Source of the DNA: Cyanidiococcus yangmingshanensis
Lineage: Eukaryota; Rhodophyta; Bangiophyceae; Cyanidiales; Cyanidiaceae
Reading direction: 5' to 3'
DNA length: 64,000 bases
NCBI GenBank assembly: GCA_013995675.1
Contig: VWRR01000011.1
Coordinates: forward strand, 248,001 to 312,000
Within the stretch, counting starts at the first letter, position 1. Each line of letters starts with the position of its first letter. This document shows, one piece after another, positions 30,320 through 56,251 of the stretch. A program made the position numbers and the translations under genes. The notes beneath the pieces were generated by a model. The model saw only the letters and a program-made list of their open reading frames with translations. It made no database searches and had not been told where the DNA came from.

Positions 30320-31598
30320 TTAGTTATATACCATGTAACGCCCAGTCGCACTAAATTTCGCATAACCTCGAATCACCTTGTTGATCGCATCCAAGAAATC
30401 CTGCTCACAGACAGTTTTTCTTCGGGCTCGAATGGCAAACATTCCTGCTTCAGTGCACACACTACGAAGATCGGCACCGGTTGTGTTTGGACAGAGACGC
30501 GCTAACAACTCGAAGCGAATACCTCGCTCGCAATTCATGCTTCGAGAGTGGATACGAAGAATCATGGTTCTTCCCTCCAGGTCCGGTAAACTGAATTCGA
30601 TTTTCCGATCAAGACGACCTGGACGCAGAAGAGCGGGGTCAAGAGTGTCTGGTCGATTCGTTGCCATCAGGACCTTGATGTTTCCACGGGCGTCGAAACC
30701 ATCCAGCTGGTTCACAATCTCGAGCATAGTTCTTTGAACCTCATTGTCACCACCTTGGCCATCATCAAAACGAGCTCCGCCAATAGCGTCCACTTCGTCG
30801 AAGAATACAATTGCAGCGCGTTTTGATCGGGCCAGTTGGAACAGTTCACGAACCATCCGTGCACCTTCCCCCACGTATTTCTGGACAAGCTCTGAGCCGA
30901 TGACTCGAATGAAGGTAGCATCAGTCCTATTGGCAACCGCGCGAGGCAAGCAGAGTCTTTCCAGTCCCTGGCGGACCATAGAGTAGAACGCCTTTCGGTG
31001 GATCAATTCCGAGCTCAATGAATCTCTCCGGATGCAACAGAGGCAACTCAACAACCTCTCGTATGCGATCTATCTGCTCCTTGACACCACCGACATCAGC
31101 ATATGTCACATCCGGCTTTTCCTCGACAGTCATCATGGTAACCGTTGGGTCGATGCGTGGGGGCAGCGGGAGTTGGATTTGGTACTTGTTGCGATCAACT
31201 CCGACCCTCATCCCCTCTTCAATATCGGTGGGTGCGACATGCTCACCCAAACCGACGACAAACTTCGCGATCTGACGGATGTTTATGACGTATTTCGCGC
31301 GTTCAGCCCCTTCCTCGATAATCTTTGTACACCTGGCAACTTGCAGGGGTTGTTCTTCCTGCATAGCCTGCTTGTCGGCGACCAAATCCCAAGTGCCAGG
31401 AGCGGCTAAACCTGTGTCAAGCTCACGAACGCCGATGAGTTCGTCTATGCTCTTTGTGCAGTCCTCGATCTCCTTCTCGAGTTGTTTGATTCGATTGCTG
31501 TACGGACCGAGACCGTATGACCGCAGCAACTGAATGTCGCCAGCATCAAGCGGCTTCGTTGTAGTTTCCCCACCTCCGGGATCCGCTTTCCCGACCAT
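30320..31598 (-). CDS. RPT1: 26S proteasome ATPase Rpt1, one frameshift
   Basis: The product (~425 residues) is the Rpt1/PSMC2 subunit of the proteasome base. The order of motifs is that of Rpt1: [49 protein letters not shown], Walker [30 protein letters not shown], Walker [16 protein letters not shown], the SRH block [20 protein letters not shown], and the C-terminal YN residues of an HbYX-like end. Directly after Walker A the frame changes by +1 (an extra T near 30947-30953), splitting the invariant [13 protein letters not shown]. The ATG at 31598 (MVGKADPG) is the first in frame. An essential single-copy gene broken at a conserved block argues for a sequence error. Confidence 0.93.
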
Positions 31599-52390: not shown

Positions 52391-53011
52391 TCACTGGGAT
52401 TCCATAAAGTCGAGCAATTCCCAACCCAAGCGGTTCCGTATTCTTTCTAAACGCGCTTTGTTCGTTCCAAAATCACCAAGCGGTTGCAAAAAAGGGTACA
52501 CGTACGTAACTTTTCTTGAACTTGATCGATAAAGAACCACTTCGTCCATTGGGCGCATCAAAAACTCAATATCATCGACGCCTCCAGGAGGGAACACGCT
52601 GGGGCCAGTCGCATACAGGTAGTATTTCTGCACTTTTTGAACCTCAAGACCCGGCTCGGCCCGTACAGCAGCCTCGAGAGAAGACCAAGCTTCCCCCGGG
52701 TCAGCAGTAGCCTTTGCGTATGACCAGGGCGGGCCGTACTTCGATGGATTTCCAACTGCAGTAGACGAAATACAGTTGTCCTCAGCGGCGCACTTTGCTA
52801 GAGCGATTTCTCGGGTCTCGGGGTTTCGTCGCTGCAGACTCTGTGGTTCAGCCACAGAAGCTCCACAGGCCAAGAGCAACGCAAGAACTGCAGCCGCTAA
52901 CGTCACAGGTCTCGCTGGCGAAACTGATCCGACGACAACCGATCGGAGAATTTTGAGCTTTTGGACTGCAAACTTTCTACGACGATAGGTGAAAACCGGG
53001 GAAACGAACAT
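52391..53011 (-). CDS. DUF1499 protein, thylakoid lumen precursor
   Basis: A 206-residue DUF1499 protein. The domain has the family cysteines in ALAKCAAEDNCISSTAVG, then WSYAKATADPGEAWSSLEAA, YLYATGPSVFPPGGVDDIEF and the ending RLERIRNRLGWE. The N-terminus MFVSPVFTYRRRKFAVQKLK is a Phe-containing plastid transit peptide, and a second hydrophobic segment with an AxA site (VTLAAAVLALLLACGASVA) is a lumen signal, so thylakoid-lumen location is well supported. Arabidopsis relatives are lumenal proteins of unknown role. It ends 20 bases from the stop of the convergent secreted paralogue. Confidence 0.88.
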   Translation of the reverse strand: MFVSPVFTYRRRKFAVQKLKILRSVVVGSVSPARPVTLAAAVLALLLACGASVAEPQSLQRRNPETREIALAKCAAEDNCISSTAVGNPSKYGPPWSYAKATADPGEAWSSLEAAVRAEPGLEVQKVQKYYLYATGPSVFPPGGVDDIEFLMRPMDEVVLYRSSSRKVTYVYPFLQPLGDFGTNKARLERIRNRLGWELLDFMESQ

Positions 53012-54265: not shown

Positions 54266-56251
54266 TCAGCAAGGAGCATGTCGACTTGGAACACTACCTC
54301 GAGGGTCGTCTACGGAACCTCTCGGGGTATACCTTCTTTGGAAGAAAATTTCGAGTTCTTTGGCGTTAAGCTGCCGAAATGTCGGGCGGCCGTGAGGGCA
54401 CGTTCGCGGTGCCCGTGTTTCTAACCAAGCATTCACAATCCATTGCATTCTTTCGAGGCTCAAAGGAGTGCCATTCTTCACCGCAGCCTTGCAGGCCAAA
54501 AAGGCAATCTGATCCTCAAGATCAGAAGCAGACTTGAGTGTCTGCAAGAGATATTGAAAGCTTTGCTCCGCCACCCGCTTCACATTGCGAGATTCAAGAT
54601 CCAGGATTCCATTTTCTAGAAACATACGAGGGATACGCTCAACTTTCCACTCCATCGGCCCGAACACGGTCATATGAATTCCCAGAGAATCGCGTATGCC
54701 GTCGACGTCTGTCTCCGCAAAGGGGGCGCGTACGATGATAGGAACCGGGAGTTCGACAGTGTCGCTAGTCAGACGATTTGACTGCGCTGAGAACTTTTCA
54801 TAAAGTACCCGTTCATGCGCAGTGTGCTGTTCGACAATCCAGAGATCGCCAAGTTCAGGATTCGTGGCCAAAATGTAGGTATTTGCAATCTGGGCGACGA
54901 CCTCTAACTTGAGTAATGACGGATGCATGCTTATGTGGGGTAGCCCATCGAATGCGCTGTTCTCTGCTTCCATAGCGTTTCTCGCATATATTCCTGCAAG
55001 CGAATCCGCAGAAGACAACTCTGATAAAGGAATTGAGAAGCAGCGGTCAATGCTTTCTCGTATTCGCTGCAACCACTGGTCCAGATTCTTCAGACGCATC
55101 TCCGTCTTCATTGGACGTATATTCCAATCCACATCTTCACCTGGACATCTCAAATGAACAAAAACGATCGGAAAACGTCCAGATGGTACAGAGCGACGCA
55201 TATGGCTAAGAACAGCACTTTGAAGCTCTGCGTTTTGCACCGCCCTTCCATTCACTGCTACGGTCACGGCATCAGCCCGCACCCGATGATGACCACGGTC
55301 TGGATACGCAAGAACGCAGCACGCATGACGATCCAGAAATGCGCCACATTCCTCGGGCAATATATCGGTAATCTGACTGAACATTCGAATCAGGGCACGC
55401 TTCGCACTCTCCTCCTCGGATTCCTCGTCCAAAAAATGATGGTCGCCGAAGAGTACTAAAACGTTGCGACCACCTTCGCGAACCCTCCACGAAACGGAAG
55501 GATGGCAAAGTGCTGTCGCCTGGACAAACGAAAGCAGCTGTTGTCGTAGTTGGGTTTTGCGTGGCATCGCTGCGAGCCTCATAGCGAATTGTTGGCCTTG
55601 AAATAGACCCCTGACCTGTACGATCGTCCCTGAAGACATTGCCACGGGCTGAACGGGATCAGTCGTCCCATTTCGTGCATTGTAATCAATCATATAGCCA
55701 CACGGGCTACCTTCGCTTGCCGTGCGAATCTGCAGGGACTCACAGAGTTGAGATATTGCCCATAAACCTTGACCTCGAAAACCGAGCGTACGGACTTGAC
55801 CTGTCTCGAGCTCCTCCAGCGAGCGCAGTTTACTCGTGGCATTTTGCAGAATGCAGTTTTCTAGGTCGTGTGGTCTCATGCCGTGCCCGTTATCTCGAAC
55901 CGTTATGTCGCAAACGTCAAAGTTGACCTCGATTTCAATTCGGGTTGCCTCTGCGTCGAGGGAATTTTCCACGAGCTCTCTCACAGCCGCAACTGGAGTG
56001 TCAATCACTTCGCCGCTGGCAATTCGTTGGATAACTTCCTTCGGCAAGACTTCCACTCGCAGTACCAAACGGAGACCCTTATGGAATCGCTTGCGGCGAC
56101 AAAGGAGGGGTTGCTCTGGCCTCACCAAACCGCTTCGTCGAGCTCTCTTTACGACCGAACAAAAGTGTACCGGGAAAGACCGCGTACTAGGCGCTTGCCG
56201 TATGCAACTAGATCCAGTTTTATTCATCTGGTGAACCGGCGAGACAAACAT
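54266..56251 (-). CDS. MUTL: Cyanobacterial-type MutL, plastid-targeted
   Basis: A 661-residue mismatch-repair MutL. The GHKL ATPase part has VIQRIASGEVIDTPVAAVRE, LVENSLDAEATRIEIEV, DITVRDNGHGM and VRTLGFRGQGLWAI. The C-terminal part has VVAQIANTYILATNPE, WIVEQHTAHERVLYE (close to the endonuclease motif DQHA(X)2E(X)4E), ACKAAVKNGTPLS and TCPHGRPT. EQHxAHERVLYE, NGTPL and TCPHGRP are the forms I recall from cyanobacterial MutL, not from eukaryotic MLH1/PMS1. The ATG at 56251 gives MFVSPVHQMNKTG and a ~65-residue basic leader, the red-algal transit form. So this is probably a plastid repair protein of symbiont origin. The frame is intact; the usual GFRGEAL reads GFRGQGL here. Confidence 0.88.
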   Translation of the reverse strand: MFVSPVHQMNKTGSSCIRQAPSTRSFPVHFCSVVKRARRSGLVRPEQPLLCRRKRFHKGLRLVLRVEVLPKEVIQRIASGEVIDTPVAAVRELVENSLDAEATRIEIEVNFDVCDITVRDNGHGMRPHDLENCILQNATSKLRSLEELETGQVRTLGFRGQGLWAISQLCESLQIRTASEGSPCGYMIDYNARNGTTDPVQPVAMSSGTIVQVRGLFQGQQFAMRLAAMPRKTQLRQQLLSFVQATALCHPSVSWRVREGGRNVLVLFGDHHFLDEESEEESAKRALIRMFSQITDILPEECGAFLDRHACCVLAYPDRGHHRVRADAVTVAVNGRAVQNAELQSAVLSHMRRSVPSGRFPIVFVHLRCPGEDVDWNIRPMKTEMRLKNLDQWLQRIRESIDRCFSIPLSELSSADSLAGIYARNAMEAENSAFDGLPHISMHPSLLKLEVVAQIANTYILATNPELGDLWIVEQHTAHERVLYEKFSAQSNRLTSDTVELPVPIIVRAPFAETDVDGIRDSLGIHMTVFGPMEWKVERIPRMFLENGILDLESRNVKRVAEQSFQYLLQTLKSASDLEDQIAFLACKAAVKNGTPLSLERMQWIVNAWLETRAPRTCPHGRPTFRQLNAKELEIFFQRRYTPRGSVDDPRGSVPSRHAPC

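Follow-up and report, generated by a model that had tools for sequence, protein, structure and literature searches.

The nuclear genome of the red alga Cyanidiococcus yangmingshanensis encodes a bacterial-type MutL that forms a joint clade with the MutL proteins of cyanobacteria, and our sequence comparisons give good support to its inheritance from the cyanobacterium that gave rise to the plastid. In the explanation that we favour, and that we consider fairly probable, this is a nuclear red-algal gene from the plastid ancestor whose product, probably a homodimeric MutL of the endonuclease type, would most likely be imported into the plastid and act there with MutS1a, a cyanobacterial MutS1 encoded by the same genome. 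The descent, the integrity of the domains, the conserved metal ligands and a partner gene carrying the FxE motif are observed; import, partnership, activity and excision are inferred. Whether canonical MutS-MutL mismatch repair operates in plastids is an open question, and this small genome has a plastid-type MutS1-MutL pair intact beside the nuclear set.

The descent of red-algal MutL from the plastid ancestor is already in print in outline. That red algae keep a chloroplastic mutL was stated by Hofstatter & Lahr 2021 (PMC7884376) and repeated by Sloan et al. 2024 (PMC12292046); there, as here, it is a nuclear red-algal gene that groups with cyanobacterial mutL and is held to be plastid-derived. 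The latter paper relates the possible cause of mutL loss elsewhere to accessory domains gained by MutS1. The passages of the two papers available to us are silent on the motifs of the protein, on its terminal cysteine and on the presence of two MutS1 genes in Cyanidiococcus. The gene is confirmed, with good support, as a member of a published kind; its plastid location is the putative step, and two additions are made, namely an alphaproteobacterial-like MutS1 beyond Galdieria and a terminal cysteine common to the cyanidial MutLs. Among titles and the beginnings of abstracts in the open-access literature we found no paper on the function or localisation of red-algal MutL, nor any that deals with bacterial MutLs ending in cysteine, which is weak evidence of absence, and the passages seen of PMC13305816, PMC7487498 and PMC13353863 contain nothing on red-algal MutL or MutS.

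Table 1. Features of the MutL gene, with positions in the window (the whole stretch of 64,000 nucleotides analysed), and the locus of MutS1b, with positions on its own contig.
Feature	Position	Strand	Basis or remark
MutL gene, 661 codons + stop	54266..56251	-	ORF, translation, NCBIfam and Pfam profiles
N-terminal leader, residues 1-64 (MFVSP...)	56060..56251	-	alignment, translation
GHKL ATPase domain HATPase_c_3, residues 88-194	55670..55990	-	Pfam
DNA_mis_repair domain, residues 321-403	55043..55291	-	Pfam
MutL_C dimerisation and endonuclease domain, residues 452-597	54461..54898	-	Pfam, template alignment
Endonuclease motif EQHTAHERVLYE, residues 474-485	54797..54832	-	H476, E480 align with yeast Pms1 metal ligands H703, E707
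C587	54491..54493	-	aligns with yeast Pms1 ligand C817
CPHGRP	54383..54400	-	C618, H620 align with yeast Pms1 ligands C848, H850
Terminal cysteine C661	54269..54271	-	end residue in 5/5 cyanidial MutLs found
MutS1b (L017)	1386-4652 of contig C15, genome G000	-	

Identity, setting and descent of the MutL gene

The frame is open from ATG to TGA and its product of 661 amino acids scores 433.5 bits against the NCBIfam model NF000951 (cut-off 391, residues 65-641) and 316.1 bits against TIGR00585 (cut-off 180), while six other MutL models match it below their own cut-offs. The three Pfam domains HATPase_c_3, DNA_mis_repair and MutL_C keep their order, all above their cut-offs, and such profile scores exclude chance as the source of the MutL identity. 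The motifs quoted in the preliminary description, i.e. EQHTAHERVLYE, NGTPL and TCPHGRPT, are all found in the translation. The Cyanidiococcus protein shares with cyanobacterial MutL (NF000951) the domain order, EQHxAHERxLYE, NGTPL, TCPHGRP and the five metal-ligand positions. It differs from the cyanobacterial form by a leader of 64 residues, by a tail RRRY...C in place of RRHWVIGKSHGI and by GFRGQ for the usual GFRGE.

The window lies on contig C3 of an assembly of 12,072,675 bases in 20 contigs. Ten of its ORFs were scanned and gave IlvD, a mitochondrial carrier, a trigger factor, a Der1-like protein, a DEAD_2/Helicase_C_2 helicase, an AAA ATPase, a peptidase M41 (FtsH-type), PFK, a CTLH/RING protein and an RHD3/Sey1-like GTPase. 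The GC content of the MutL gene is 0.513 and that of the window 0.514. The gene sits on a nuclear chromosome, and since its neighbours are eukaryotic and its GC content matches that of the window, it is not bacterial contamination. An AAA ATPase gene at 30320-31598 (minus strand), presumably that of a proteasome regulatory subunit, is divided between two ORFs that overlap, and an intron or a frameshift may be the cause.

Four relatives rank above all cyanobacterial-type matches, with identities of 71% (P0003), 63% (P0004), 39% (P0005) and 38% (P0006). The organism name is carried by P0006, which is Cyanidium caldarium CDCA01G0214, and the other three are called cyanidial from their position in the tree. 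All those with organism names among the next 115 listed matches are cyanobacterial. A search with the cyanidial alignment placed only the same five proteins ahead of the cyanobacterial-type matches among the best 120 listed, a search that split genes may escape. The domains and motifs are kept in the four relatives at 38-71% identity, which implies selection on the cyanidial MutL.

An IQ-TREE phylogeny was built from 57 of 136 rows, with long algal branches and without named Gloeomargarita or Gloeobacter. In this tree the five cyanidial proteins form a clade (100/99) that is sister to 34 cyanobacterial rows (98/97), and the joint clade has support of 100/99; outside it fall the PMS1-like protein and MLH1 of the same genome, eight bacteria of other groups and eight further rows from the same phylum search that are more distant. 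The picture is the same in a second tree of 54 rows, from which the PMS1-like protein, MLH1 and Bacteroides were dropped (cyanidial clade 100/99, cyanobacterial clade 98/96), and the grouping of the cyanidial MutLs with other bacteria is rejected there with p 3.5e-32. The preliminary description had read the gene as a bacterial MutL of cyanobacterial type, and the phylogeny bears this out, with the protein placed neither among MLH/PMS nor as a recent bacterial contaminant. A cyanidial clade sister to cyanobacteria is what endosymbiotic transfer predicts; its position as sister to all sampled cyanobacteria, rather than nested among them, may reflect the long branch.

Two bacterial-type MutS1 genes and the nuclear set

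Seven MutS loci were found in the genome. A search of it with MutL as query matched the MutL, PMS1-like and MLH1 loci only. A bacterial MutS1 in the same genome, suggested by the preliminary description as a thing to look for, exists as the cyanobacterial MutS1a (L016), and a second one, MutS1b (L017), stands beside it. The presence of two bacterial-type MutS1 genes in one genome, one cyanobacterial and the other alphaproteobacterial-like, is new here. Each has all five MutS domains, and the FxE mismatch-reading motif is kept in both, as GDFFETF in MutS1a and GDFFECF in MutS1b. MutS1a passes the cut-offs of NF003810 and TIGR01070; MutS1b passes the former and misses the latter (534.3 versus 641.7).

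The MutS1 tree has 46 rows, for which 19 of the 116 non-cyanidial matches were picked by hand and which include no yeast-type MSH1, and a reduced tree of 34 rows was made by dropping the MSH2-like row, Kozakia, P0126 and nine bacterial rows. MutS1a is sister to all 12 cyanobacterial MutS1 rows, with joint-clade support of 100/99 (46 rows) and 100/100 (34 rows). It thus takes the same tree position as MutL, as joint inheritance predicts, and is the likely partner of MutL. The 12 rows come from a set of 15 cyanobacterial genomes with a MutL; in the other three, i.e. Phormidesmis (G008), Leptothoe (G012) and a Thermosynechococcus MAG (G014), MutS1a has weak matches only (L124, L125 and L123, respectively). 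These three may have MutL without MutS1, if their genome assemblies are complete, and their weak matches may be MutS2.

MutS1b shares 99% identity with CCYA04G1259 of Cyanidiococcus yangmingshanensis and groups with P0125-P0127, which include Cyanidium caldarium CDCA08G2307. This group is sister to Alphaproteobacteria plus the bacterial rows P0128 and P0240, with support of 99/98 (46 rows) and 100/98 (34 rows). The 34-row tree rejects an origin of MutS1b by duplication from the plastid MutS1 (p 0.008), and it also rejects a clade of MutS1b with the four alphaproteobacterial rows alone (p 0.016), so our claim is a position sister to an Alphaproteobacteria-containing clade and not one inside the named Alphaproteobacteria. 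In the passages seen of Sloan et al. 2024 (PMC12292046), Galdieria is the only member of the Archaeplastida with an identified alphaproteobacterial-like MutS1, and a transfer into that genus is a candidate explanation. The occurrence of the type in Cyanidium caldarium and in Cyanidiococcus weakens the idea of a genus-specific event and favours an origin within Cyanidiophyceae that is older than a Galdieria-only transfer.

The remaining loci make up the rest of the MutS and MutL set. L021 is MutS2 (479.5 bits, cut-off 400) and L024 is MLH1 by its Mlh1_C domain (39.4 bits, cut-off 25), with the FERC end in another frame just past its ORF. The endonuclease motifs of L023 (DQHAADE...CPHGRP) mark it as PMS1-like. 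We take L020 to be MSH2, L018 to be MSH6, and L019 and L022 to be MSH4 and MSH5. The genes at L018 and L020 are spread over several reading frames, and introns or frameshifts are likely. No MutS-GIY-YIG fusion was seen in the scanned ORFs of six of the seven MutS loci (all but L018), some of these genes being split between frames.

Leader, compartment and competing explanations

A location of MutL in the plastid is plausible from its sequence, since the basic leader with Phe at position 2 fits such a location, although it proves nothing. Residues 1-64 include 14 K/R and a single D/E, and have no counterpart in 17 cyanobacterial-type rows of the alignment. M1 and M9 are the only in-frame ATGs ahead of residue 125, already a part of the ATPase domain, so translation from an in-frame ATG would have to include a leader; a database prediction of the same protein (P0002) begins at M9, and a start within an upstream exon is possible. 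In three relatives (P0003, P0005 and P0006) a Met coincides with the start of the domain, where the Cyanidium caldarium model P0006 begins, and the leader is therefore evidenced in the Cyanidiococcus MutL alone. In the synonymous test of coding signal the leader falls at percentile 0.17 of the gene pieces and at 0.42 of the non-coding null, and when amino-acid make-up is taken into account as well it drops to percentile 0.0045 of the gene pieces; codon bias is uninformative to unfavourable on the leader.

The preliminary description also took MFVSP for a red-algal transit leader. The MutL does begin with MFVSP, and that part stands, but the idea of a general leader fails: the DNA pattern, written with serine as TCN and thus leaving AGY codons outside the search, has six matches genome-wide (two forward and four reverse) versus 22 in the backward-read control, and we reject it as a genome-wide signature of plastid leaders. 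Two of the six matches are gene starts in the window; of the other four, one stands at the head of a long ORF (L029), one at that of an ORF of 43 amino acids, and two precede frames of 8 and 19 residues. The other gene start in the window belongs to a neighbour at 52391-53011 (minus strand), a DUF1499 protein that begins with MFVSPV and whose sequence, with a hydrophobic stretch behind the leader, resembles that of a thylakoid-lumen precursor.

In the mechanism that we propose, MutL would most likely be imported into the plastid, where MutS1a would recognise mismatches. MutL would bind ATP and then be recruited, and it would nick one strand, after which the error would be cut out and resynthesised. 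An intron-blind search of the assembly, seven contigs of which span 571-849 kb, found no DnaN (PF02768; 10 of 14 controls match) and no RecJ (TIGR00644; 13 of 14 controls match), and two loci bearing UvrD_C were found. Since no beta clamp was found, strand choice would probably not be routed through a nuclear-encoded bacterial clamp, and pre-existing nicks would be the likeliest guide. With neither RecJ nor DnaN found, excision and activation may differ from those in bacteria.

Three other explanations were weighed. The same gene, with the same origin, could serve the mitochondrion or both organelles with MutS1b as its partner. Two bacterial-type MutS1 genes facing the one bacterial-type MutL that was found would fit this, as would the grouping of MutS1b with Alphaproteobacteria, its FxE motif and the statement of Hofstatter & Lahr 2021 (PMC7884376), in the passages seen, that no MutL was traced to mitochondria. 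The starts of the two proteins are also alike, MFVFP in MutS1b and MFVSP in MutL, but this start of MutS1b is absent from its relatives P0125 and P0127. MutL and MutS1a are both of plastid descent, and yeast MSH1 is not known to rely on a dedicated bacterial MutL. We regard a mitochondrial or dual role as unlikely.

It is more improbable still that MutL has been retained without mismatch repair and acts in the control of plastid recombination. The failure to find RecJ and the beta clamp in the assembly would agree with such a role, and so would two changes in the protein, i.e. VELPVP opposite QEMIVP, with the Q missing, and GFRGE altered to GFRGQ. The first, however, is matched by two cyanobacterial MutLs that also have no QEMIVP-like stretch, the second is carried by Thermosynechococcus-type MutLs too, and the catalytic motifs of MutL and the FxE of MutS1a are kept. 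That the gene was acquired recently from a free-living cyanobacterium, or is a bacterial contaminant of the assembly, could be argued from the cyanobacterial names among the 115 matches listed after the four relatives, yet we give it hardly any credence: the five cyanidial MutLs form one deep clade outside the 34 sampled cyanobacteria, the protein has an N-terminal extension, and the GC content and the neighbours of the gene are those of its eukaryotic surroundings.

Endonuclease site, ATPase variant and terminal cysteine

All five metal ligands named for yeast Pms1 in the passages seen of PMC3814310 are kept in the MutL with equal spacings in the alignment to 4e4w and 3gab (Table 1), and because these positions are conserved, the latent endonuclease is probably active. 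The motif pattern is passed by 5/5 cyanidial and 126/129 bacterial MutL rows. A change of D to E at the first motif position, pointed out in the preliminary description, is indeed present and leaves the metal ligands intact. It is rejected as a special plastid change, with E found at this position in 109/109 cyanobacterial rows and likewise in the 115/115 listed matches P0007-P0121; the 22 other rows of that set have D in 10 and E in three, and nine do not match the motif expression.

The C-terminal domain of what we take to be Bacillus subtilis MutL (PDB 3gab, 3kdg and 3kdk) matches the endonuclease domain with a phmmer E of 1.6e-13. The template has D in DQHA, ends where the cyanidial tail starts and alone carries QEMIVP, presumably a clamp-binding motif; the stretch opposite to it is VELPVP in the MutL, and the two cyanobacterial MutLs compared likewise have no QEMIVP-like stretch at that site.

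GFRGQG stands in the ATPase domain in place of the GFRGEA of most cyanobacterial rows. We observed GFRGQ in 5/5 cyanidial MutLs versus 0/115 in the first match list, and later in 4/131 other rows. It is thus rejected as a cyanidial-only trait, the four others (L077, L099, L176 and L177) forming one Thermosynechococcus-containing clade with GFRGQ instead of GFRGE. A tree uniting the four with the cyanidial rows in one clade is weakly rejected (p 0.037), and the shared variant is possibly a convergence in thermophiles.

The last residue is Cys in 5/5 cyanidial MutLs found, versus 1/129 bacterial MutLs (0/115 in the overlapping first match list). The Fisher p of 1.8e-8 is overstated, as the five share ancestry; one gain followed by retention is enough to account for the terminal cysteine. 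The tails run for 13, 20 or 32 residues past the last conserved Tyr, and they differ in length and sequence among three lineages while the three closest relatives share parts. The MLH1 and PMS1-like proteins of the same genome have the GHKL ATPase in common with MutL, and MLH1 also ends with Cys; they differ in lying outside the cyanobacterial clade, and the cyanidial tail is a stretch of variable length ending in C rather than FERC.

Eukaryotic MLH1 ends with FERC, a proposed contributor to the Pms1 site, and according to the passages seen of the same paper, yeast Mlh1 whose terminal Cys (C769) was deleted or replaced gave no mismatch-repair defect, and protein without this residue nicked DNA as wild type does (PMC3814310). 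The parallel between MutL and MLH1 is real in form as judged from the sequences, and a shared function is hypothetical. An AlphaFold model of the MutL (mean pLDDT 65.5, pTM 0.47) has MutL-family N-terminal domains as its best PDB matches and a weak tail, where residues 647-654 stay below 50, and it is therefore not used for structural statements on C661. We speculate, and only tentatively, that the plastid MutL of Cyanidiophyceae may have gained a flexible MLH1-like tail independently. Its terminal cysteine might then reach the metal site of the partner subunit, or act there as a redox switch, giving the homodimer composite active sites as proposed for MLH1-PMS1 and tuned for a compartment with no known activating beta clamp, with one MutL possibly serving two MutS1 proteins that differ in bacterial descent. 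The terminal cysteine is a simple target for point mutants, and the passages seen of PMC13353863 present a related alga, Cyanidioschyzon merolae 10D, as genetically tractable. The sole MutL ending in Cys among the 129 bacterial rows (L054, from UBA2566) has the end GKSHGIQEC.
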